A stretch of DNA of 64,000 nucleotides. It comes from Branchiostoma floridae. Its lineage: Eukaryota > Chordata > Leptocardii > Amphioxiformes > Branchiostomatidae. Positions 9,201-53,595 of this stretch are shown piece after piece; the first letter of the stretch is position 1, and every line of letters begins with the position of its first letter. Under the pieces are notes generated by a model. That model was not told the DNA's origin, searched no databases, and worked only from the letters and a program-made list of their open reading frames with translations. The stretch spans positions 10,583,751 to 10,647,750 of the forward strand of contig NC_049994.1 of assembly GCF_000003815.2 (NCBI RefSeq), in the 5' to 3' direction. Both the position numbers and the translations under genes were made by a program.

Positions 9201-9730
9201 TCTAATTACTAAACGAGCGATTTCAGTGTCCATTATTTTATCATTGATGTTTTTTTCTTTCTGGTTGTTATGGGACGTCTAGTTTGTTGTGTGATTTATT
9301 TCTCGCTGTCGGGTGTTAGATTTCGTACCTCTTCTATTGTGTGAGACAGCTTCGGCAGCTTGAAGAGCGTTTTTCTGATAAAAAGTGTACTAGATCCTTG
9401 ACACTTCGGGGTACGTCGTCCTTCACACAACGGCTCCAGTTACGTGTGCTTGTAATTGATTGAGGAAACTCGTGTCATTTTCACTGACTATTTCTGAAGT
9501 ATACGTTGAAAACAACAGAGCATGTTTTGTTGTGGATTATAGGAACAACGACATCTCGAATCAAAACTTCGATTTTTTTTCTTCTAAGTAAAGTGGCAGA
9601 GTTTTATGTGATGGGACCTCTGTGACGTGACCCAGGCGTGCGTTTTATGTCGTCGAAGTTGATTCTAAACGAGCAAGGTCAAATTGTTGGGGACGGGGCG
9701 ATTTATTTCTTAAACTGTCAACGCGTTTTC

Positions 9731-37807: not shown

Positions 37808-37836
37808 CTTACTTTTTAACCTTCTCTGTTTTCCAG
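37808..37836 (+). other. Possible 3' splice site just 5' of the Hox3 promoter
   Basis: A long pyrimidine-rich run ends in TTTTCCAG at 37836, directly before the CCAAT/E-box element. It reads as a good splice acceptor. Vertebrate Hox3 paralogues have long transcripts starting far upstream, so this could receive a distant non-coding first exon. Speculative. Confidence 0.3.
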
Positions 37837-37843
37837 GGCTATC

Positions 37844-37867
37844 ATTGGTCAAGTACGGTCATGTGAC
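37844..37867 (+). promoter_or_regulatory. Hox3 promoter composite: inverted CCAAT box + E-box
   Basis: ATTGGTC (37844-37850), seven bases, then GTCATGTGAC (37858-37867). The first is an inverted CCAAT box (NF-Y type). The second contains TCATGTGA, the complement of the TCACATGA M-box (USF/MITF/TFE type). The same pair at the same spacing precedes Hox2 and Hox1. It lies 76 bases 5' of the Hox3 start, and no TATA box is seen. Confidence 0.55.
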
Positions 37868-37942
37868 ACCGGGGTGCCAATGTTATTTGATAAGAGTGTC
37901 AAGACCTTGTCACAAAGAAATAAATTTCTACAAAACAACGAG

Positions 37943-39867
37943 ATGCAAAAATCACCTTACTACGAAACAACATCGCAACAACTTTACAACGGCTACAGCT
38001 ATAGTAACGGGGAGAGGTTTGGGTACGAGGGGAGTGGAGGCGGCGGCGGTGGTGGCAGCTATGGGGCCGAGGTTACACAGGACTTCGGCCCGTCGTGTTC
38101 TGTACGGAAGCCGGGCAGTACAACAGGCGGGGGGACTGGCAACGTTAGTCCGACCTGTATGAAGACAAACCCAGCCGACAACAACCACGGCAGCGCTCCC
38201 CAGTCCAACGCCTCCATCCTAGCTAACACTAAGATCTACCCCTGGATGAAGGAGTCCCGCCAAAATTCGAAACAACGCCAGCAGCCCAATCTATCAGGTA
38301 CGCTGACAGCACAAATTTATTGGCAATGAGAGAATAAATTGAAGCAGCCACGCTCTGCGAAGTGACTGTAAAGTCGGAAAGATACATCACACACGATGAG
38401 GAATCACTAGCTGTTCTATCAACCGCCTTGTCACTACATCTGTTCACATATCTGCCGCTGGGCACTGGCAGGCGTTTCTACACTGCCCTTGTAAAGTTCT
38501 GTTTTCATTATTAATAACATTAGATGAATTTTATAGAGCTAGCCAATGATATGGCCGAGTTCATGGGACGATTACAACGTGATTAGTAGTAGTCCCTCTT
38601 CTAGGCTAAGTTGACAAATTGTTCAACGTACAACGTCAGCCAAGTATTAGGAGTTGACAGCCACCTCATAAATCAAGTCGAGGGGAGCTGACTTCCGTGA
38701 TAGGCCCGCCAAATTTCAACTTCTACACACCGCTGTTCTTCGGTTCAAACAAAAACAAAATCTTAGCGAACACAAATAAAGCGTGCGTGGTTTATTGTTA
38801 GAGTTTTGGGATGGATTTTTAGCGTGAGTTTTGTGGAATGGAATGGGGGAGTTTTGTAAGGTGACATCGAGTTAGCGGGTTGAAGGGTTTTGATCGATGA
38901 TGTGGGGCGGGTAGTCTTGCTGTGAGTCGGAGCATGCTTGTAGTGGAGGTCACTAAATGTGGATGTTTTTTCTTCCCGGTTCGCAGTTGGAACGACAGAG
39001 CCCGGGGAGTCCCCGGGACTAGGCGGCGCCGCAGGGAAGCGGGCCCGTACAGCCTACACCAGCGCCCAGCTCGTGGAGTTGGAGAAAGAGTTCCACTTCA
39101 ACCGGTACCTGTGTCGGCCTCGGCGAGTCGAGATGGCGGCCATGCTCAATCTAACGGAGCGACAGATCAAGATCTGGTTCCAGAACCGCCGCATGAAGTA
39201 TAAGAAGGAACAGAAAGTTAAGGGCGGGGGGAGTGGAGGAGGTAGCGGGGGCATGAACAGTCCCTCCCCGCCGGCCACTACAACACCGCCCGGTATCAAC
39301 CCCGGGCCCCTGCCCCATCCCACCACCCAGCCGAGCTTGAGTCAGAGTAACAACATGTCCAACCACATGAGCATGATGGGTTCGTTACAACAGACTCAGC
39401 CGGCCTACAGCCAGTACCCCCCGCCACATCTGAACCACAGTCTACCTCACCAGGCACCGCCGCACAGCGTCGGACTCACCATGTCCGGACCTGTGTCTCC
39501 GCAATGTTACCAGTCTAACCACTCTCCCTGTCCGCCCTCGTCAGCCCCCCATCCCGTCCCCATGGGGAACCACGTCCCCCACCCCCGCCAGGGGCCCCCA
39601 CACATGACCAACGGGCTCCCCGCCTCCCCCCTCGAGGTAGTAAGTCAGCGGCAGTACACTCCCCCCGCGCCGGGACCCTCACCGACAGGCCCCGGGCCGG
39701 GTCACCACGGCCTGACGAACTCATACCCGGAGTGTCCGCCACACCACACCGAGCTACCTCATCACCAGTACTCCACCCCGATGTCTGTGGTCAATATGAA
39801 CTACTGTGTGAACGTACAAACTCAGGGAAATCGTTTAAACAGTGCGCCCAAACTCACGCATTTGTAA
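37943..39867 (+). CDS. Hox3: Homeobox protein Hox3
   Basis: Anterior Hox transcription factor that acts in the nucleus. Exon 1 is 37943-38297 (donor CAG|GTACGC) and exon 2 is 38987-39867 (acceptor TTCGCAG), with a phase-1 intron of 689 bases; together they encode 411 residues. The start MQKSPYYE matches the conserved vertebrate Hox3 N-terminus and has G at -3. An in-frame ATG at 37880 has a weaker context. The hexapeptide IYPWMK is at residues 98-103, followed by ESRQN.KQ. The homeodomain is residues 135-194, with WFQN containing Q50 and N51 and the Hox3-typical RYLCRPRR. A Gly run (32-38) and a long Pro/His/Ser-rich C-terminal region follow the family pattern. The protein ends in APKLTHL, the conserved Hox3 terminus. 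Length is close to vertebrate Hox3 (about 430-440). It is the first of three co-oriented Hox genes here. Confidence 0.97.
38298..38986 (+). other. Hox3: Hox3 intron (phase 1)
   Basis: GT...AG intron between the hexapeptide and homeodomain exons, the conserved place for Hox introns. It contains a TTGACAG word at 38654-38660. The reading frame closes at 38329, so retention would give a short protein without a homeodomain. Confidence 0.85.
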
Positions 39868-40345
39868 CCTCTGGGCCTGGGCAATGGAAACATGACACAC
39901 ACTTCCGACTTCCTTATCAAAATCATCAAAAATGACGATCAAAATTTCCCCTCATATGTCATAACTAATTATTATATAACAAAATTCCAGCTACCAAAAT
40001 CTGTAAGTTTTTGAAAGTCGTGTCCATTTGCCCAAAGAAGTGTTAGCTGAAAGTATAAGCCCAGTGCATCTATTTATACGGAGAATATGTATATTTTCCG
40101 CGAAGTTAGAGACGGAAGTACGAAATGTCATTGCAATGATAGACTCTTGTCATCTATTCTATTCTAAATGTCTTCTCTCGCTTTCTATATGCCTGTGAAT
40201 ATAGCATTTAACTCTTAGCTAGTGTATTCCTTCACTATTCCTTGCCGTCCTACAGTAGTTAGTTAGAAGAGAGAGAAACTGATGTATTTATGTAGCTAGT
40301 TTTGTCCGTAATTTATTCAAAATAATAAATGAAGTATTCGCTTCG
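39868..40345 (+). other. Hox3: Probable Hox3 3' untranslated region with poly(A) signal
   Basis: AT-rich sequence follows the stop codon and contains AATAAA at 40324-40329, about 460 bases downstream. The end of the transcript is inferred. Confidence 0.55.
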
Positions 40346-43300
40346 AGGGTAAAATTGTTAGGAAATATTAAAAAAAGACAATTTTATCGTTGACGATTCA
40401 CCTACATTGATGTTGCTGTATATGTAGAATTTTTAGGATGAGAAAAAAGTGGGGGTAGCGTTCCTATATATGTGAATGTTCGTACTATTCATGTGCAACG
40501 AAATATTGAAACTTGGCAGTGCAAGACTGATTTTCTGTGACGAATATTTGGGGTGTTGACGTTTGCAATCTGCCCCGTGTGTTCGTACATAGCATAGCAT
40601 TTGACCCGACCTGTTCTTTCTGTCAAGCAGTCTTTATTTGTGTGGGTTCTCCGTATGTCATAGTCCATATGACCCAGTGTGTAGCTCTCTCCTCACACCC
40701 AGAATGTACACACAAATTGACTGGGAAATCTCGCTTTGAATCTTGACAACAGTCCCCATGCGATCACTTTCATGTACAGGCCTGTCTGATTTTTGGCACA
40801 GACGTTGTCAATTTTCCAGGCCCTGTGAATTTTGACCCCAAGAAAACGGATCTCTCAATCGCCAACAGACTCTCGTCTAACACGGGTTACTAGGAGAAAG
40901 CCACACGGTGTCAAAAAGTCACAAGCGCTCAGTTTACATTACAACCAAATGTTCTCGGAGAAAATGTAGGAAACTGTGAAATTAAAGGAGAATAACGTGA
41001 ATATATTGCCACACGGATCGTCTGCTATTTATGTGCATTTATTTAGTCTGCTATAGAGGGGGTGGGATCTCTGCAACCTGCTCTCTTACACACGAGAAAA
41101 TTAAATTTTCCTCGCCTAAACAAAAGTTACTTACAACGAAGCAACTACCGTTAAGTCCTAGCCCACTAGTAAAGCCAGCATGGGTACCTTTGTTGGGAAG
41201 GGGGAAGAAAGAAAGAAAAAGGAAACCAAGGATTCTGTGTACTAAAAGGAATTTTATTCACAATATCACATCCTCGACACTTTACCTTCTGCTTTCCAAC
41301 TGGTCTTCGATGAATGCCAGCAGAAAGAGCCTTCCCCACACTGACGAATCTGTAACAAAAAATAAAACTTTGTAACCCAAAATAACATACCACATTACCA
41401 GAAAAAAAGCATCACAGAAAAACAATGTCCATGTACACACACGGAAGTAAAACAAAACACACAGGTCATAACAGCAATATAAAAGCTCAATATAACACCT
41501 AGAGTTAATAATTTGACCTTTAAAATTTAACTGGTACTGCGTATACTGTTCTTGTGAAGAACATTATTGTGTGAAAGCTCCGGACCGTACGGAAGTTAGA
41601 ACCACCCTTTCTTTGCAGCCACAAAGCTCGGCAGTAATTGTAGGGGTCCACCATCCAGATATTCATACCAAGGGTCAACCTAGGGACAAATTTTGAATAA
41701 TTTCGTAAGCTTCCCTGCAGCTAAATTTGAAAATATTACAAGACCGCGATGTATTTGACCCTCGCTTTACATGGTAGGTACTGGAGGGGTTAATAGAGTT
41801 CTTGTGTTGAAAGGGTGGTGGTGGAAATAGAGTGTGCGGGAGAGAAATTGGTAGATATCTACACCACGAAACACACGGTTTTCCTTGTCATCCGTCTTAG
41901 AGCTGTCTTGTCACAATCCTCTGGCGAGGCCGAGAAGATGGATGGGTTCCCGCGCAGACAGCTCACAATCAACACAATTCGGGGGGTCATGCCGAATATT
42001 TCGTTTCATTTCTTTCCACACTTCTGAACTGAAATTGACTCTACAAAAACTCCAACCGTCGCTGGTCAACAAGCCTTTCGCCGATACAGTCCCCTACCTC
42101 ATTTAGGGTCATGTAGATTTCGATCCAAACCGTAACAAGGCGGCAAATACGTTCTCATAACAGATTAATATTTCGGACACCGGACCAAAGGATTTCATTA
42201 TAGGATTCTTCAAGACTTATTAGACCAAATAATGACACAATCATGGCTTGGCCGGACTGGCCGAAACGGTCGGTTGGAACTGACCAGCACTGATTCTGAT
42301 TAACCTAGTCTCAAATCTTCCAGGGAGAAACAAAAATCGAAGAACGGCCGTTTTCTGTGTCAGGAAATATCCAGTCATTTGTAGGGATAAGGCTATGGGC
42401 ATCTGTCTTTTAATCTTCGATCCGCAAAAGGTTTAAATAGTTCCAATTGGGAATTCTATGTACAGTTGTATCAGTTATGTTTTACCATCAAACAAATCAT
42501 CTATTTTATGAGATTTTACCCATAAGAAACTATAAAAACACGCTGCATTCACCAATTAAAACTAATAATTAATTTCACAATAAGAATTGCTTGCAATCAA
42601 GGCACTAATTTGAACCAAGTTGCGTAAAGAGAAATGCATTTTTGTGGTTAGAGTTTACATCACCACCTTCGCTACTCGATCTAAAATGGCGTCTTTAGTG
42701 TGTCCAATTTTATGTACCCTGCCCTTTTATCGTCCTTCATAAAACACACAAGTCACCAGAAATCGATATGGCGTTTTACCGGGGCTTGCGGAGTCACAGA
42801 AAAGTAATCCAACAGTCATTCATTACTGTGGATATGTTGAGGGAAATTAAGGGACCCAAATGTTGGGCGATGAGGCCGGTTCAGAATGTAGCCTTTGCGT
42901 AAGTGCGTTTGACAGGTATGATGGAAGACTGGTGGCCAGTTCTAACCACTACACGTGAAACGTTTTTATTCATGCACAAATTTCAGTCACACAACGTCGC
43001 TAAGATCACATATGGTATCCCTATTACCCCATACCTAAAAGTCTGACTTAAGCCAAGCCCTTTCCAAAATAGTAACCGTTACTTTGGGTGGAATTTTTGA
43101 GAGGACAAATATGTTGTAGTTGCGACTGCGGGGCGACATAGTACTCGCCTTCTGTTTAACTCTAGCCATTTTTTTACAGTCCAATTATGTTTGAGTCGTA
43201 GGAAAATGAGAGGGTACGCCTGGCTGTTATTTCATCATGTAGGGATTTAGACGGTTGGGATATTTCATTAGAGAGAAAGGAGATGACACGAGTAAATAGA

Positions 43301-44717
43301 ACTAAGTATTCAACTGAGCCGCTTTGCTGTCAAAGAACGTTCGCCTTTATATTCGTTTCCACCCGATTGGAAAAAGCGGGTGGACTCGGCAAATACAAAC
43401 TTATTTCTCTATCTAGAGTTGGTCTGTGTGTTTTAGAAGTCAAGCGTATCTTTAAGGTCCTAGAGACGGTCTACCAGTCAGTGCTTACGCAGTCTCGACT
43501 ATTTCCTGTACTTGTGAGAAGAGGCCCAGCGATCCCACAAAACAACAGTCTTCTTAAATATGCACACAGACCTATCCTCCCTATTTCCTTGCCAAACACC
43601 TTCCAGGTCGTATCCATACCTGAAAACACAGTCTCCCATTCACGTAGGTTCGATTAGGGGGGACTGGGAACCCAATTTGTGCCCGAAATTTGATTAAATC
43701 GGCAGTGGCTTGAATATATTCAAATGTGAACTCTGGATGACCCCCTCGGCTGGCTGACAGGAAAGGGGAACCGGTTACCGACAAACAACACGACTTGTGT
43801 CGCGACCCTTTCTTTCTTCTTCCCTGTAATACAAACTTCGCTGATTTAGCCCAAACGAAAAGGTTTCCCTGTTGGTTTTAGTACTGACAGATGGAAATGT
43901 TGGGCTTTCTTTCGTCATCGATTTTTGGAGGGGTCCCAATCGTTGCCGAATGCCTTAGCGAGGAATTCGGTAGACCGACTCGCCTCTAGCATTTTTCCGC
44001 CATAGCGTCCCTAGCCGACCAAATGTTCCGATTTTCAGACGGCAAGTCAAATAGAGGTACTCTAGGGTGTAGAATCTACAGGGAACCGTACATGTAGAGT
44101 ACAGGGAGGCCTTACCTTTGTGGAGGCTCTTGTAGCGGCCCCGCAAGCTGGCGTCTTTCACCCCTGGCACCCGGGCTGCATTTGATGCTTTCGCAGCACT
44201 TGAAAGCATCGGAGACGGAGCTTTGACATGACAGCTGCATTGACAAACTTGAGTTTCTTGATAAAACCGCTCCACTAGTCTTCAAATATACCGGGCACGT
44301 TCCAACCTTACATATAATAAACCACACAGGTTTCTACAACGCTGTATATCCTCAACCCTCTCTCGTGACTTTGAGATTTATTTGAAAACTCGCGATAATG
44401 ACTTTTGTCCAATTTACCTGTCAGGGTTTAAGCAGAAAATGATTGGTGAGGTGCGACCGCTTGTATTGACAAGTTGGCATGTATGTGATGACCTCAAAAC
44501 ATCCAACAATCCTTTTAAAATCCACTCTTCTTGTGCCTTGTGTTAGTTTTACCCGATTCTTATCGCTGCTAGGTAAACAGTTGGCATTTGCTTAGAGTCC
44601 TGTAGTAAGTGGGTAGAGATTTCGGCTTCACTTTCTGAGGGAGGGTACGATTCTTGCAGATGTATGGGTCAAAACAACACATTTCTCACTTACTACGGAT
44701 TCCCTAGACGGCTTACC
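40346..44717. other. Hox3-Hox2 intergenic DNA
   Basis: No gene recognised. It holds TTGACAG/CTGTCAA at 40620, 42909 and 43327, GAAATTGAC at 42031, a one-mismatch DR5 at 41672-41688 and a DR5 matching at both half-sites at 43727-43743. An inverted-repeat patch at 44057-44102 (GTACTCTA...TAGAGTAC) includes the small palindrome TGTAGAATCTACA. Confidence 0.65.
43727..43743 (-). promoter_or_regulatory. DR5 retinoic acid response element candidate upstream of Hox2
   Basis: On the - strand this reads GGGTCA-TCCAG-AGTTCA, a match to RGKTCA-N5-RGKTCA at all defined positions. It lies about 1.15 kb 5' of the Hox2 start and 3.9 kb 3' of the Hox3 stop, so it could serve either gene. Receptor binding is inferred from the repeat geometry. 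Confidence 0.5.
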
Positions 44718-44741
44718 ATTGGTCAGCTAACGTCACATGAT
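44718..44741 (+). promoter_or_regulatory. Hox2 promoter composite: inverted CCAAT box + E-box
   Basis: ATTGGTC (44718-44724), seven bases, then GTCACATGAT (44732-44741), which contains TCACATGA. Order, orientation and spacing are identical to the elements 5' of Hox3 and Hox1. It lies about 150 bases 5' of the Hox2 start codon. NF-Y and USF/MITF-class factors are the inferred partners. Confidence 0.55.
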
Positions 44742-44840
44742 CACTCAACTGTCAGCTCGCCTCTTGCTGACGACTAGTGATGTTTCATACGACGCCTGAG
44801 GGCCGAACTATCCGAAATAAGAACCCAAGTGGCGAGAAAC

Positions 44841-44850
44841 TTTTTATACT
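44841..44850 (+). promoter_or_regulatory. Weak TATA-like sequence of Hox2
   Basis: TTTTTATACT lies about 45 bases 5' of the start codon and 100 bases 3' of the CCAAT/E-box pair. If used, the 5' leader would be very short. It is a degenerate TATA match, so confidence is low. Confidence 0.3.
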
Positions 44851-44890
44851 TATCCCGTCCTAAAGGGACGTCATACAGACGAGTTTTACC

Positions 44891-45928
44891 ATGGATATAC
44901 CGAGAGAGAGTGGATTTATAAATTCACACCCCTCGCTGGAGGAATTCATGAGTTGTCTACCTATCAGTGCCGACTTTCTCAAGTCATCAATCACCGGTGA
45001 GACGGCTGAAGACGGGGGAACGTGGCCCCCTCTGCACCCTACAACTTGCCTGGAGCTGAACTCTGACCTCTCACCAACTCAGCCCGCCAACATTGCAGAC
45101 TTTCCCTGGGTGAAACTCAAAAAGTCCGTTCGAATTGTACCATCACCAGTCTCCAACACAGAAGGTACAGAACCTGTTCTTTGTACTACGGGGAAGTTGT
45201 AGTGATTTTATATCGGTTAAACTTTTCTTTTTTAAAGGTTTGGCTGCACAGTTTGACCTCTTCGCTCCAAACACTTAACCATTTTATCAATGTGGAGTCC
45301 GAGCGTTGAAAGATTTTACCAGCAGCGCAAAGAGAGGGGTGTTTTATAAGTACTTCTGTCGTCTTTGGAAGTTTGTTAAAAACGACAGATGTTACAAGAG
45401 AGGAGGCCATGTGGGTTGGTATATCAATGGCTGGGTAGCTAACTCAAGCATATGTCCTGTAATATTCGATTTCTTTTACCCACTTCTGAGAACTTCTAAG
45501 GATTTTTTCAGCATTCAATTTCTAATTTCAATCTATTTCTTATTTAATATAAAAGGCTCATTTTCAAAGTTATTTTTTTCTCAGAAGCGGATTTCTTGAC
45601 TTCACCAACCGACCAGGTAAATAGTTCCCGTCGATTGCGTACAGTCTTCACAAACACTCAACTTCTGGAGTTGGAGAAAGAGTTCCACTACAACAAATAC
45701 GTGTGCAAACCTCGCCGAAAGGAGATCGCTTCTTACTTGGACTTGAACGAGAGACAAGTGAAAATTTGGTTCCAGAACCGACGCATGAGACAAAAGAGGA
45801 GGGACACGAAGGGACGGGGTGAGATCGGGAGCGATCCTGGGACTGCCGCTGAGCCGGCAGATGGTGGCCGGGCGGAGGAGGGCTCCCCGGGCGGGGGTAG
45901 TGCAACCTGTCCCCGGCCCCAGGGGTGA
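44891..45928 (+). CDS. Hox2: Homeobox protein Hox2 (short, divergent)
   Basis: Anterior Hox transcription factor. Exon 1 is 44891-45164 (donor GAAG|GTACAG) and exon 2 is 45585-45928 (acceptor TTTTTTTCTCAG), with a phase-1 intron of 420 bases; the product is 205 residues. The N-terminus [17 protein letters not shown] resembles vertebrate Hox2 (GFINSQPSLAE...). The hexapeptide is FPWVKL (71-76), with Val in place of the usual Met. The homeodomain is residues 106-165: [19 protein letters not shown] is Hox2-like, WFQN carries Q50 and N51, but [15 protein letters not shown] and the end RMRQKRRD are unusual. Only 40 residues, rich in Gly, Ala and Glu, follow the homeodomain, so the protein is far shorter than vertebrate Hox2 (about 350-375). 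A further 3' exon cannot be excluded. A DR1 repeat (45057-45069) lies inside exon 1 and may be coincidental. Confidence 0.93.
45165..45584 (+). other. Hox2: Hox2 intron (phase 1)
   Basis: GT...AG intron with a T-rich tract before the acceptor, placed between hexapeptide and homeodomain as in Hox1 and Hox3. The exon 1 frame closes soon after the donor (by 45202). Confidence 0.85.
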
Positions 45929-47365
45929 CCAGGCCCCGGTGGACTGGACGGTCAGCAAACCATATTGACGGATTGACCACAACACTCTAGGAAAGAAGCA
46001 AACATTTGCTGTAGCATAAATCTAGAGTCTTTTATCGGTAAAACGAATTTTTTTTTAAAGTCAGAAACAGGCCAGAGACTGCTGGAGTAGTGTAGATATA
46101 GTTGTATGTTACAATGAATTTAATGAACTGCATATGATGGTTTACTTCGGATATATCATTCTTTCTTGTAAGTTCAACATCAAGAAGGCATACGAGTATT
46201 ATCGCTACGTATCCATGGCTAAATCATATCTTTCTTATATGCAATGAAAGATTGAATAGTTGTGATGTCTTAAAATGTCATCATTTTCCGCATATCTTGA
46301 AGGTAAATTCAGTATGTAAGTTTTAACAACTCTTTATATTAATCATCAAAAGTGTGTAACAATACTGTACCCATTTTACCATATGCAATGAGATTTGTCT
46401 GCAGATCTTGTGAAAGATTGAAGGACGGGCCCTATTTTTAAAACAAATCCATGAGCTTGGAAACAAGACCAAATCATAGCTGTTTAAATGCAGTTTTGGG
46501 CACAAAGGACTATTTCTTTTTGTCCCTCCTAAATTGTCATTATCTTTCTTGCTTATATCGGGCCTTAAGAGAATTACTTTAAACGTTCATTCATACTTTT
46601 TTTTTCCTTTATTCAGTTGAGATTCCTTTTTATCCAGTTTCCACTGTGCCTCATTATAAATACACCTGTCCAAACTACTGCGTGAAGAGTTGTCTCCCCA
46701 TCCTCATGTCCCACCCTACCTGTGTGAAGTTGTGTGCACCTGTTCTCCTTGACCTTGACCTTACCTGACACTTCCTGTTATTGTGGATACTTGACCTTGG
46801 GCGGCAGCTTGTCATCACCTTTACATGTTCCTTTATTGTGCATACTTCCTCTAAATACGGGAAGCTTTGCTTCTGTTTTCTCCGGTATTGTTTTATAGTT
46901 TCTTTATTGACCTTGTTGTTGACCAACGTTGACCTTACTAGTTAACATGGGTTAACCTTTGACCTCTAGAAGTGAACCTAAATTTTGTAACAGAATATTT
47001 TTGACTATCCTACAAATGTTCTTAATTTATTCTAGGTATACATTTTTACAGTATTTCTAGATTTTCGAGAATCATTGGTGTTTTTGGTACGGTACTAGTA
47101 CGTTTAGCACTTACAAAGAATAACACAACACAAGAAGAATGTATTATATTTATCATATTCAGCTTCATAGAATGCATAATTTCAATACTTGTATTCAGAT
47201 AAATGTCATAACAAGTTAATGTTTATACCAATACATATTTATTATATCCATTTCGATACAAATGTAAATATATACCTACACTTACTTTGAAACATGTCGT
47301 TTTTGTAATAAATATCGAGAAACAGGTCTAATGTATGGGCACTTTTCTTTTTAAGTAATAAATAA
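45929..47365 (+). other. Hox2: Probable Hox2 3' region with candidate poly(A) signals
   Basis: AT-rich sequence after the stop. AATAAA occurs at 47307-47312 and 47357-47362, about 1.4 kb downstream; a nearer variant signal could be used. It includes the TTGACCT cluster at 46749-46965. Transcript extent is inferred. Confidence 0.4.
46749..46965 (-). promoter_or_regulatory. Cluster of extended nuclear-receptor half-sites
   Basis: Six TTGACCT words lie in 217 bases, all in the same orientation: two joined in TTGACCTTGACCTTACC (46749-46765), then at 46791, 46907, 46929 and 46959. On the - strand each reads AGGTCAA, and most fit TCAAGGTCA, the extended monomer site used by ERR, SF-1/LRH-1 (FTZ-F1) and related orphan receptors. 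Whether this is regulatory DNA, 3' UTR or both is unknown. Confidence 0.4.
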
Positions 47366-47715
47366 CATTAATGATAAGTGAAAGCAGCAAGAATGTAAAA
47401 TTTTAAAAAATGTGGATTTTTTCGTAATAAGGCATAAGAAAAGCTGGAATAACTTCTTTTCTATAAAAAAAAAGCTCTGCGAATAGAGAAGGGGGAAAGT
47501 AACGTTTTTTAGGATTGCTTGCCTTCAAGCATTTACTGATAATACATGTTTAGATATGCTAATTTTCCTGAAGCCAGCTGCCTGTGGTAGTGACGGTAGC
47601 ACAGAGGTGTGCAGATGATGTGTTGTTGTATCCACACCAACCTGGTGACCTGGAAAACACGGAAAACAAAACTGTTATGATCAATAATTTAGTCAATAAA
47701 TCAATACACTTGTCC

Positions 47716-47733
47716 TGACAACATTGATTGATG
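47716..47733 (+). promoter_or_regulatory. MEIS + PBX-HOX composite
   Basis: TGACA (47716-47720) is followed four bases later by TGATTGATG (47725-47733). A MEIS/PREP core next to a TGATTGAT PBX-HOX core is the known layout of Hox autoregulatory and cross-regulatory enhancers in vertebrates (Hoxb1, Hoxb2). It lies 1.8 kb 3' of the Hox2 stop and 4.6 kb 5' of Hox1. Function is inferred. Confidence 0.4.
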
Positions 47734-49447
47734 TGTTCATCATTACAAATGGCTGTAAGAAGACTTCATTATTCCATTATAACAGAATGATTTTTTTTCT
47801 TCAAATTCTAAATAAAAATTACAAATATTTCAGCTGGACATATCCTAAATTCCTTTAGGAAAGAAAAATTTTGAAAGATTTCATTTCATCAACTGGACTT
47901 ATTTCAAACTCAGTTATAGAAAATTATTTTAGCAATATAATCATGGGCGGTGTGGTTGTTTGTAGAAAGCAATTTTGTAATAGATCATAGTACAAATATC
48001 ACAACTGTAAAAGAAAAAAACATAGCAGTGAAATACATGGTAATGACAGTGAAGTCATTTATGGACTGATAGTGTTTTTGTTTAGTCCGGATATCAAATG
48101 AAATTTTTCAGTCATAATTTTGACAACTTTATGTCATATTAAGTGACAGGAAACTATCATATCTTTTTCCCATGTGAACATGTGTAAACTCCGGCAAGGG
48201 ACGCTTCTTACTCCGTCCAACCATGCGAAACCTTATCAGTAATGATAGGTTATATAACAAATTGTTGGTGGGCTAGCTTCGCACATACAAAAGAACTTTC
48301 GTCTCGTAAAAAGTGATTGCATATTTTAGGTAAGCTACTTTTTTTCCCAATTATTGCATTTGTTTTACTTGTTTTCATTTATAAACTACTTCCCATAACT
48401 TACGTCCATTTTCAAGTTCGACAAAAAGGTCTGAAGTCAACCTACAACTTATTTTAATTCTGAAATAAAACAACAGGAATGTTCTTTGTTTCATTTCATA
48501 TTTTTCTGTTTGTTGTTGCATTTCTAAGGTTGGTCAACTATTGGCTAAAAATGTTTTAGTTTTAGAATTGCAGTGACTCTTTTGGAATATTGTGCTATGT
48601 CACATACCAAAGCGGTGGTAACAAAAGCCCACTTGGGAGACAGCACACCTAGATACAACATGGCGCCTTGGTATGGGTTACTTGACAACCGTTACATTCA
48701 AAATAAAAATTGGTCTTCTCCACCCTACTCTTCTGACACTCATCTTGTTCTTTTCACGACTTGAAAAACGAAACCTTGAGATAAACAAAAGATTTTAAAG
48801 GTGTTTAAAAATAGAGCTTGGATGGATACAAAAAAAATCTTTATTTCAAATTTTCATAGAAACAATTCAAGGGAATTTAGTGTCAAACCTATTTACATAT
48901 TGTTACTTGTTAGCTTCCTGATCTTTCTATACCAAAACGATAGCCAGAGCATTCTTACATTTTCCAACGCCCAAAAAAGATTATGTTCAGTTGTAACTAC
49001 TATAATAATTTTTCTTATCTTTTCTCAGTGTGAATCAAATGTTTTGAACTAGACTTTTTTTTTATTCCGGGTTAAATTTCGTGATTCTTGTTCTCCTGAA
49101 GCGTAGTCACAAACACTGCCTGTGTAGAACAACGTGGTCCTGTGCGCGCGCACATGGTAGCACATAATAAACCTCGTACACAGCTGACTGGTAACAAATA
49201 CACCCGTTAGCTGCCAAAACACTGCCGACCGTGAACCCTTCCCTCATCTATCACACTCTACTATCGCTTCGACGATCGACACTCGCCGTCTCTTTGTTGG
49301 AACGTTTGTGGCAAGTGACCCAAACGAATCGGTGTAGGGGATGGCTATTCATCTAACTCTTGTAGAGTTGGTGACGTCGTAAGAGTGACTACAGGGGCCG
49401 TGCACTTGACCTAGCCTGCCATATATCGTAACCTCAAACGGGGGTGG

Positions 49448-49460
49448 TGAACTCTGAACC
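49448..49460 (-). promoter_or_regulatory. DR1 nuclear-receptor repeat upstream of Hox1
   Basis: On the - strand this reads GGTTCA-G-AGTTCA, an exact RGKTCA DR1, 2.8 kb 5' of Hox1. The receptor is not identifiable from sequence. Confidence 0.35.
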
Positions 49461-52121
49461 GCAAGCATGTGTGTGTGGACACCAAAACATGTCAACACAA
49501 CTACAGACAGCTGGGAAAGAGGGCTACCAGAAACACAAAATCACAAAAACATTCTAAAATATTCCCCAATGTTTATTTAAAACTCTACCATGTTCTTGTG
49601 AGGTATGAATAACTTGGCGATTTTTTCTGCGATTTAAGAAGGGAAGTCATGAATTTTGCAAGCCTTGTTGTAAGTCGTGTGGCGGCTTGAGTGAAATAAA
49701 TGAAGCATAGCCAACTGAATACATTTCTACCGAGCTCTGAGGGTAACTTTGCTTCCGGGCAAGCCTTATCGACACACGGGTCATGTCAGAGTTCAAGCCA
49801 TGTCGATCTCAATATTTGCAATAAGGTCGGCCGACGTGTTGTTTTCAAGCCTTGGAGGCACACGGAAACACATGGGGGTGTTTAGAATATCAACAAACAG
49901 AGAATTCCTGCAGAAATGTAGGGAAACAGGCCATGACTTAGGTTGAGGGAGGGGGGAAAGAGCGATCTAAACTCACTGAAACAAGGATTTATGATAGAAA
50001 AATCTAAAAGATACACACCACATTGATGCTAAAACAATCAAAAGATTATTAGATGCGTTTGATACACTTGTTATAAGAAGCCATAACGTTATGTGATTTC
50101 TGCAAGTTTCAAATCAATTCTTACATACTAAACATGCAGTTTTGTAGTTGTGTTTTCAGTATAAACAGAATGCTTCCCTCAAAAGTTTGCCTGAAAAACA
50201 AATGCTATAGCTTACGGTCAAATTTAATGTCTGGAAACATTATAAAACGTGATCTGTTTTGATCAGTGTAAAAATGAATCAAGCTCTTGGCTACATTTTG
50301 AACTTAGTGTCTTCTATATAGGAGAAACTGTTCTTACTTAATTATGTATACTGTCACCCATTACAAACGTAATTTTCCTCGCTACCTCCTGATCAATGAA
50401 TGCTGATAAAACGTGTGCTTGCATATAGGTGATGTTGTTTTCGGTGTTAGGTCAATTAGAAGTTGAAAACTTGTCTTTCAAACCTTGTTACCAGAAATTT
50501 GCAGAGGCATTGATACAAATATTAGTCCTTTTGTTAAGTAGAAGAACGCCATGCATGATAATATGTAAGAAGTTTTGTACGAAATCTTGTATAACGTTTA
50601 TAGAGTTTCACAACATATTTTGCTTGAGATTTTCGAACATTTTGATAAGAAAATGTGCGGTTTTTGCTTATCAGCTAAATCATGGTGTTTCAAGATTCCA
50701 GCGGTTACGAAAGAACACTTACTCTTTGTTATGTAGAACTAACCCTGGTATCACCGTCTGCAAAATAGGAGAATTATCCTGTGTATTACAACATGTTTTG
50801 TGAGGTAAAATTAGCAAGATCGACAACTCGTTGTCGGCTATTATTCGTGGCGGGTTGGTGTGAGTTTAGACAATTGTCTCCGCTGTTATCAACATTTGCA
50901 AATCAGAGGGAACAAAAAAAGCGTGCACTTTTGTGTGAATTTTGTTGAGTTGTTGCAACAATATGCATGGTGCGAAAGCATGCATAGGTTTTCAGTTGTG
51001 TTGGGATTCACCACAGATGGGGTGGAATAGAAAGTGTGTTGGAAAAGAGAGTTTGAGGGGAGTGTCTGTAGGAAACGGTTGACATTTTAAAACAGAGAAC
51101 GGGACATGGTTGGTGAGGGGAAAAATGTAGCCCCTTGGGCGGTAGGATCTGTGTCACAAAGGCCCACCGAATCTACACCACAGCTTTTTCATGCAAAACT
51201 TCCAACCCGCGCGTAATTATGCATGAATGTGCCCGGCCAAAAAGCTTGCCAACCCCAAAGTAACACTTTTGGAGGGATCAATAGAACCTAATTAATTTCT
51301 CACTGCGTCTGATGGGGTAGAAAAGTTTGACTTTTGGTGGCAAACGGAACAAAAACGTGTTTGTTTTGTGCCCAACGTGTAGGTCTTTCGTGGGGCTCTC
51401 GATGGTGACCCCTCACACGACCCTTGTAATGGCGGCGATGATTCGAGAATAAATCGGCCAACCAGATACGCCGAATCTTGTCCTGTTTGGGGACAAATCT
51501 CCCTCCACTTCAACAAGAAGTGGCCAAACTCTTAACTAATTTCTGAGCCAGGTTTCTCTGCTTTAAAAACGACTTTAAACGTCCCAAACACGAGCGAGTT
51601 TTCAGTAAGCTTATCTGTCGATATTACCACAAGCCTCAGTATACAGAGCTTGGGATACAGCAAATATTTAATAATTCCTGGTCTCTGGCGACTCAAATAA
51701 AAAACTGCCGTTACTCCACTCAACTCTGAGTACTACAAGTTGTATAGGATCGTTTGAATCTCACATATTAAGTCCAGGAAATTTTAAAAAGTGGTCAGGA
51801 ACGTTTTACGGTTACCGCCCCTCCCCACTTCTATTGAAGACGCAATGATCATGATCAAGACCTAGCTCGATCGTCGCCAGAGTTTTGAGCCCTAAATAGA
51901 CGGGTTTACCTGTAGCACACAGGCCGGGGCGGTGGTAGGATCCTCCGAGACACCGTCCTATCTGTCCCGGTGACTTTGGTCTCTCCTTTACAGTACGTTT
52001 CACCCCATACTGCTGGAAAATCACGGCACACTCACTGAACTTGGCATAAAATTTACCGGCTTGCGACTGGTTTGCCCTAGGTTGATAAATTTAACATCAG
52101 TGATTTAGATGTCAGGCTCGG

Positions 52122-52131
52122 TGATGGATCA
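52122..52131 (+). promoter_or_regulatory. PBX-HOX type site in the Hox1 promoter
   Basis: TGATGGATCA fits the TGATNNAT consensus bound by PBX with Hox1-class proteins. It lies 168 bases 5' of the Hox1 start and 38 bases before the CCAAT/E-box pair. Position and sequence suggest Hox1 autoregulation, as known for vertebrate Hoxb1; this is inference. Confidence 0.4.
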
Positions 52132-52168
52132 CCTTGATAAACATACCAAATAGGCTCTGGTTGTTTTG

Positions 52169-52192
52169 ATTGGTCGCTGTTTGTCACGTGGG
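52169..52192 (+). promoter_or_regulatory. Hox1 promoter composite: inverted CCAAT box + E-box
   Basis: ATTGGTC (52169-52175), seven bases, then GTCACGTGGG (52183-52192). Same order and spacing as at Hox2 and Hox3, with the E-box in its CACGTG form. It lies 107 bases 5' of the Hox1 start codon. No TATA box is seen in the remaining leader. Confidence 0.55.
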
Positions 52193-52298: not shown

Positions 52299-53595
52299 AT
52301 GGAGCAAATGGACACGGCAAGAATGAACTCGTACGTGGACTACTCTCTGTGTAACGGCGACCAAAACACTTGCTCCCCGAGGAGCTATGGCCAAGACTAC
52401 GGTGTCCCCGCTTACCAGTCGTGCGCGATGAACAATGTTGACCGACACGTTACGATGGGGCCGAACGGGCAGCTGCCTCCGTCGGCCGGGCCAGGCCCAG
52501 GCCCCGTCCCGGGCCCGTCGCCTTACGACCCGCCGGTTATCATGCCTAACGGCGACCCGCAGAATTTTACAACGTACTCGTATAACCACTATTCTCATCC
52601 TGGCGGCCACCACATGAGCAATGGTTACGGGACGAACAACCATGCTGCTATGTACTCGGGGAGTTTCGGGGCAGAGCTTGCCGGTTCTTACTCGTCGTAC
52701 AACTCAGGAATGAACGGGACAGTGGCCCCGCCACCCTTGGACTCACAGTACGGATACATGCACCACCACACGGGGCAGGACCCCATGATTTCCACGACCT
52801 GTAACCCCCCTGCACCATCACCCCCTGTTGCCACATACGACTGGATGAAACTTAAGCGTAACCCTCCAAGAACAGGTACGTTAAACTGTCCTTACTACTG
52901 CCCTACAAACCTACGTTATCACCTCCCGAGTCAGCGGGGCCGCGCGCACATGTTTACGGAACTGGCGCCTAGGACTCCCCGTCTGTTCTCGCTCGTAGTA
53001 CCGGTATATAACCATCGGCGTAAACAAGACTTCGTCAATCGCACTAACAACTACTCCCTAACGTTTGTATTCAGACGTTGGCCTTTGTTTGGCTAAGTAT
53101 GACAGCTTACAAGTTGTGTTTGTACTACAAACCGTCCATGCCTTGGTGGAGCAAGCTGTGCCTAATACGGGGCTCCTGCCTTATGCATGAAATTACGATT
53201 ACATAAAATTTGATAGGACACACAAAATTTCCCGTAAGATTTAGCACATAGAGCAGTCGTCTTTGTTGTTGTAACTGGAAGTTTTGTTGCTGTGTGTTAC
53301 TCTAGGAAAGCCAGGAGAGTACGGCTTCACGACGTCCGGGCCCAACAACGGACGGACCAACTTCACGACGAAACAACTGACGGAGTTGGAGAAGGAGTTC
53401 CACTACAACAAGTACCTCACGCGGGCGCGAAGAGTCGAGATCGCCGCAGCCCTCAACCTCAACGAAACTCAGGTCAAGATCTGGTTCCAGAACCGTAGGA
53501 TGAAACAGAAGAAACGGGAGAAAGAGAACGGCTTCTCCACCCCGGGTAGTGGAGGGTCTCCGGCTGGCGAAGACAGCCCGTCGAAGTCGACGTAA
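52299..53595 (+). CDS. Hox1: Homeobox protein Hox1
   Basis: Most anterior Hox transcription factor. Exon 1 is 52299-52875 (donor ACAG|GTACG) and exon 2 is 53306-53595 (acceptor TTACTCTAG), with a phase-1 intron of 430 bases; the product is 288 residues. [14 protein letters not shown] aligns with the vertebrate Hox1 start, which argues for the second ATG at 52308. The first ATG (52299) is kept because both have C at -3 and G at +4. The middle is rich in Tyr, Ser, Pro, Gly and His. The Hox1 hexapeptide [11 protein letters not shown] is at residues 180-190 and runs into RTGKPGEYG, as in vertebrate Hox1. The homeodomain is residues 205-264 ([24 protein letters not shown] with Q50 and N51, ending MKQKKRE). 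Only 24 Ser/Gly-rich residues follow, shorter than in vertebrates. It lies 3' of Hox2 in the same orientation. Confidence 0.97.
52876..53305 (+). other. Hox1: Hox1 intron (phase 1), open in frame for 73 codons
   Basis: GT...AG intron. The exon 1 frame stays open through the donor until a stop at 53094-53096, so an unspliced transcript would encode a 265-residue protein with the hexapeptide but no homeodomain. Confidence 0.85.

Follow-up and report, generated by a model that had tools for sequence, protein, structure and literature searches.

A paired CCAAT/E-box element in the proximal promoters of most readable Hox1–10 genes of amphioxus

In the amphioxus Hox cluster, seven of the nine readable Hox1–10 promoters (Hox1, 2, 3, 4, 8, 9, and 10) carry a CCAAT box and an E-box in a single arrangement, placed 99–176 bp 5′ of the ATG. 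On the sense strand, ATTGG lies 5′ of the E-box in all seven, with 9–11 bp from ATTGG to TCAYRTG. We consider it probable, at roughly three chances in four, that this pair is a composite promoter element for NF-Y and a USF/MiT factor, and that most of the readable Hox1–10 genes of the cluster use it. Hox genes have been studied mostly by way of their distant enhancers; if our reading is true, a two-site module would be a cluster-wide promoter rule in an unduplicated cluster, the isolated human cases of HOXB4 and HOXB7 would be linked to a possible common origin, and the joint opening of Hox promoters could be tested by mutations of a few bases. Titles and abstract starts in the open-licence literature revealed no description of this element at the Hox promoters of amphioxus, and the main text of an amphioxus functional genomics paper contains none of the terms 'NFY', 'NF-Y' or 'USF' (PMC6292497).

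Three elements upstream of Hox3, Hox2, and Hox1

The window is the whole stretch of DNA analysed, 64,000 nucleotides in length (C16:10583751-10647750 in a genome of 513 Mb). It contains three first coding exons on the + strand that we take to be those of Hox3, Hox2, and Hox1, on the basis of family signatures in the homeodomains and first exons together with gene order. The Hox3 exon (37943–38297) starts MQKSPYYE and contains YPWM, and the Hox2 exon (44891–45164) starts MDIPRESGF, the 3′ ends of both being placed by eye; the Hox1 exon (52299–52860) starts MEQMDTARM and has an approximate 3′ end. The start codons at 37943, 44891, and 52299 were assigned from open frames and Hox-like N-termini.

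The pattern ATTGGTC-N7-GTCAYRTG has exactly three matches in the window, all on the + strand, and none in 100 dinucleotide shuffles of the window (mean 0.00, largest 0). A preliminary description of this DNA had singled out these three spaced pairs; the matches are exact, although the end coordinates it gave were two bases too long. Written in a shorter form, the Hox3 element (37844–37865) is ATTGG-N10-TCATGTG and starts 99 bp 5′ of the ATG, the Hox2 element (44718–44739) is ATTGG-N10-TCACATG and starts 173 bp 5′ of the ATG, and the Hox1 element (52169–52190) is ATTGG-N10-TCACGTG and starts 130 bp 5′ of the ATG. When all gaps from −12 to 300 between ATTGG and TCAYRTG are considered in the window, a gap of 10 accounts for five pairs, and every other gap for at most one. 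Matching with up to two mismatches gave no excess in the window (10 matches, five of them perfect, vs 16.04 expected).

The pair across the Hox cluster

The adjacent genome was examined over 200 kb to the left, as were six stretches 5′ of other homeobox exons, which a homeodomain search had located; Hox9 and the genes beyond it were numbered by chromosomal order, and start codons were assigned from open frames. The pair is present at Hox4 with a gap of 9 (at −125), at Hox8 and Hox9 with a gap of 10 (at −135 and −139, respectively), and at Hox10 with a gap of 11 (at −176). What had been described as an element of Hox1–3 at fixed spacing is therefore common to those three genes, but it extends to seven of the nine readable Hox1–10 genes and its gap ranges from 9 to 11. 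Across the 264-kb stretch that takes in the window, there are seven pairs at gap 10 and two at gap 11, and no other gap between 0 and 59 has more than one.

Hox6 has an E-box only, GTCACGTGG, with its core at −102; the nearest CCAAT-like sequence is GTTGG, 13 bases before TCACGTG. At Hox7 neither box is present: an E-box is lacking in the 600 bp, and a CCAAT box in the 300 bp, 5′ of the ATG, and the sole ATTGG lies at −508. Hox5, whose first exon adjoins assembly gaps, was left out of the counts. Farther left, the stretches scanned at four more homeobox loci lack any pair with a gap of 9–11; two of these loci, posterior genes (L031 and L032), had an identifiable start, and the two leftmost (L033 and L034) had none. 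The posterior gene L032 has GTCACGTGAC, with the core at −181 and CCAAT on the opposite side. With the two posterior genes included, both without the arrangement, the tally is seven of the 11 Hox promoters whose start could be identified.

Sequence features and candidate factors

Elements were scored against the NF-Y consensus and the USF/MiT consensus RTCAYRTG. In all seven, ATTGG is intact, followed by Y in six and by G in Hox4, and all seven contain RTCAYRTG. The TC that follows ATTGG in the first box as initially proposed (ATTGGTC) is a feature of Hox1–3 only and is not kept in Hox4, 8, 9, and 10. The distance between CAYRTG and CCAAT is 10, 11 or 12 bp in all seven elements, or 15.5–17.5 when counted from centre to centre. 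Judged from these sequences, NF-Y and a USF/MiT protein are the likely binding factors at the Hox elements, and the NF-Y and USF/MITF/TFE candidates named at the outset fit, in order and spacing, the rule given for human NF-Y/USF sites.

Controls and alternative explanations

In 2000 sets of shuffled Hox promoters, the hit rate was 0.0009 per 300-bp promoter, and no set had more than one promoter hit. Twenty stretches of 2–3 kb (14 + 6) upstream of non-Hox homeobox exons lacked the pair at every gap from 5 to 24. Ten of these, which had an identifiable start and at least 300 bases upstream, were retained as control promoters; the other ten, including three ParaHox stretches in which no first exon was recognised, were dropped, the start being unidentified or the sequence 5′ of it too short. 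Among 300-bp promoters, the pair occurs in seven of nine from Hox genes vs none of the 10 controls (Fisher one-sided, 7e-4). The controls are a convenience sample made up solely of homeobox genes, with no housekeeping genes among them. The E-box TCAYRTG alone is present in eight of nine Hox promoters vs one of the 10 controls, where it is a TCATATG (Fisher, 1e-3).

Alternatively, the pair could be a commonplace module found at many promoters of this genome and not linked to Hox in particular, the Hox promoters simply being of the class that carries it. A genome-wide count gave 958 occurrences of the gap-10 pair vs 157 of the reversed pattern, which indicates that it is a real general module and not exclusive to Hox. 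The first 100 sites of the listing fall into 59 clusters with 73 distinct sequences, many copies being repeats; in 47 of these 59 clusters, TCAYRTG is preceded by A or G, as is expected of real USF/MiT sites. We nevertheless regard this account as unlikely, given the difference between the Hox1–10 promoters and the other homeobox promoters, housekeeping genes not being among the latter, and given a density of the gap-10 pair in the Hox region about 12x that of the genome. At the genome rate, 0.49 gap-10 pairs would be expected in the 264-kb stretch, which includes 13 kb of N and had been selected on account of the finding itself, vs seven seen on six E-boxes (Poisson for at least six, 1.3e-5). 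The pair is thus enriched in Hox promoters and missing from all 10 of the non-Hox homeobox promoters, but it is not an exclusive property of Hox genes. Both words are short and present elsewhere in the window, as a chance co-occurrence of common words would presuppose, but the shuffles, the spacing profile, and the control promoters are all contrary to it; chance is refuted by these counts, and its probability is practically nil.

Hox genes are tandem duplicates, and copies of the composite are present in repeats of this genome; both facts would suit an element that is common to these promoters as the remnant of a tandem duplication or a mobile element. However, an alignment of the seven promoters has 10 invariant columns, all of them inside ATTGG and TCA..TG, the linkers differ among all seven elements, and when the nine 300-bp promoters were compared all against all by BLAST at E 0.1, the nine self matches were the only ones. 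Alignment and BLAST together argue against a simple duplicated block, in agreement with the initial view that the sharing is not a simple recent duplication, and on these two results we rejected a duplication or repeat origin, which we hold to be highly improbable. It is likewise improbable that the second factor is a TALE homeoprotein (PREP/PBX/MEIS) and not USF. A geometry of TALE-10bp-CCAAT is described for zebrafish and mouse (PMC11802806), and at Hox4 and Hox8 a CTGTCA shares bases with the E-box. Against this, CTGTCA is found in just these two of the seven elements, so that a TGACAG-type TALE site 10 bp from CCAAT is not a property of the set; Hox10 lacks even GTCA, and CAYRTG is complete in all seven. 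A TALE site as the main partner was therefore rejected, fitting two of seven elements only.

Comparison with vertebrate promoters and a proposed mechanism

The human HOXB4 promoter, for which Zhu in 2003 is said to be the original source, is reportedly bound and activated by NF-Y with USF1/2, and the human HOXB7 promoter, going by the title of a 2003 paper by Meccia, is said to work with NF-Y, YY1, Sp1, and USF-1. In human ENCODE data, USF1/2 and MITF E-boxes lie 10–12 bp 5′ of CCAAT (PMC7793273); CCAAT is placed 17 or 18 bp downstream when counted from the E-box centre (PMC7046753), and by another measure the spacing of NF-Y and USF is 21–22 bp (PMC5219757). The amphioxus elements resemble these human composites in having the E-box 5′ of CCAAT, in a distance of 10–12 bp in both, and in equal relative orientation, whereas they differ in position: the human composites are mostly distal (PMC5219757) and the amphioxus seven lie just 5′ of Hox start codons. 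Human regions with NF-Y and USF, most of them distal, are found near genes of the class 'Homeobox protein, antennapedia type' (FDR 4e-4; PMC5219757).

For HOXB4, where the preliminary description had pointed to joint action of NF-Y and USF, a spacing of 10 bp has been published; the same paper gives 9 bp at other K562 sites, positive ChIP-qPCR for NFYA and USF2 at both HOXB4 and HOXB7, and no narrow peak of USF2 in the ENCODE K562 data within 3 kb of where HOXB4 starts (PMC5223348). The amphioxus elements would be like the HOXB4 promoter in pairing NF-Y with USF1/2 at a spacing of 10 bp, a likeness by published description and not by DNA, and unlike it in that the human case is one gene in blood cells and the amphioxus case many genes in a single cluster. 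With the HOXB7 promoter they would share NF-Y/USF factors, but the spacing there is 21 bp and not 10 (PMC5223348). The TALE/NF-Y composite of vertebrate embryos is similar in having a partner site 10 bp from CCAAT and different in that this partner is a TALE site, not an E-box (PMC11802806).

At the HoxB4 promoter, USF1 reportedly recruits hSET1A (PMC3675019). From this and the human NF-Y/USF literature, we infer a joint NF-Y plus USF/MiT platform by which Hox promoters would be open and H3K4-methylated. At such a platform, an NF-Y trimer on CCAAT and a bHLH-zipper dimer of USF or MiT/TFE type would sit side by side, 10–12 bp apart, in the proximal promoter; NF-Y would open the promoter chromatin, and the adjoining dimer would stabilise NF-Y and recruit H3K4 methyltransferase complexes. 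The Hox promoter would thereby be kept competent, and regional enhancers would then set the place of expression. The recurrence of the pair suggests a common on-switch for the seven Hox genes, and we infer that the element may be ancestral. A wider proposal is offered tentatively, since we give it somewhat less than even odds: the core promoter with which the chordate Hox cluster was founded could be this single NF-Y plus USF composite. It would have been in place in anterior-to-middle genes ahead of the vertebrate genome duplications, would still be in use at human HOXB4, and would serve the whole cluster as a permissive switch, marking promoters for coordinated opening.

The Hox3 site and composites away from Hox starts

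At Hox3, the E-box is also part of a mirror composite on the − strand with a gap of 10 (37860–37881), so that a single E-box is flanked equidistantly by two CCAAT boxes. The resulting site, ATTGG-N9-GTCATGTGAC-N9-CCAAT, is symmetric across 37844–37881, with a 10-base palindromic-type E-box core and nine linking bases on either side, and it is the sole instance of this CCAAT/E-box/CCAAT mirror form within the 264 kb. Seven bases 5′ of the Hox3 element there is a possible splice acceptor AG on the + strand (37835–37836; a pyrimidine tract then CAG, recognised by eye and unscored), and the element may therefore be exonic or an internal promoter. Use of this acceptor would place the Hox3 element in an untranslated 5′ exon of a transcript that begins farther upstream.

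A further gap-10 composite in the window, ATTGG-N10-TCACATG on the + strand at 1526–1547, lies between the Hox4 homeobox and Hox3 without a recognised adjoining gene start, and another, at C16:10527131 (L014 3381–3402), lies between Hox5 and Hox4, also without an adjoining recognised Hox start. Both may be promoters of transcripts that are non-coding or give microRNAs, or else distal Hox promoters. No Rfam family reached threshold in the window, so the site at 1526 is unexplained by a catalogued RNA gene. Two gap-11 composites, likewise lacking a recognised Hox start nearby, are located 3′ of the Hox8 and Hox7 homeoboxes (C16:10449774, in L022, and C16:10461187, in L021).

Elsewhere in the genome, identical gap-10 composites occur in same-strand pairs 3.5–4.3 kb apart (C1:9728703/9732161, C2:8380923/8384838, C2:9695027/9699318, and C2:14264472/14268291), as the two long terminal repeats of one retroelement would give; human NF-Y/USF sites are reported in HERV LTRs (PMC7793273). 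There is also a tandem repeat (L002, around 1501) whose units contain the CCAAT/E-box composite, one of the units shown having a damaged E-box. Two hairpins were noted within the cluster. One, between Hox9 and Hox8 (L024, about 9501–9560), is mir-10-like and folds well (z −2.8), with no match at the Rfam gathering threshold; the other is a mir-10 precursor, identified by an Rfam match, which lies 2.5 kb 5′ of the Hox4 ATG (L010 8524–8598).
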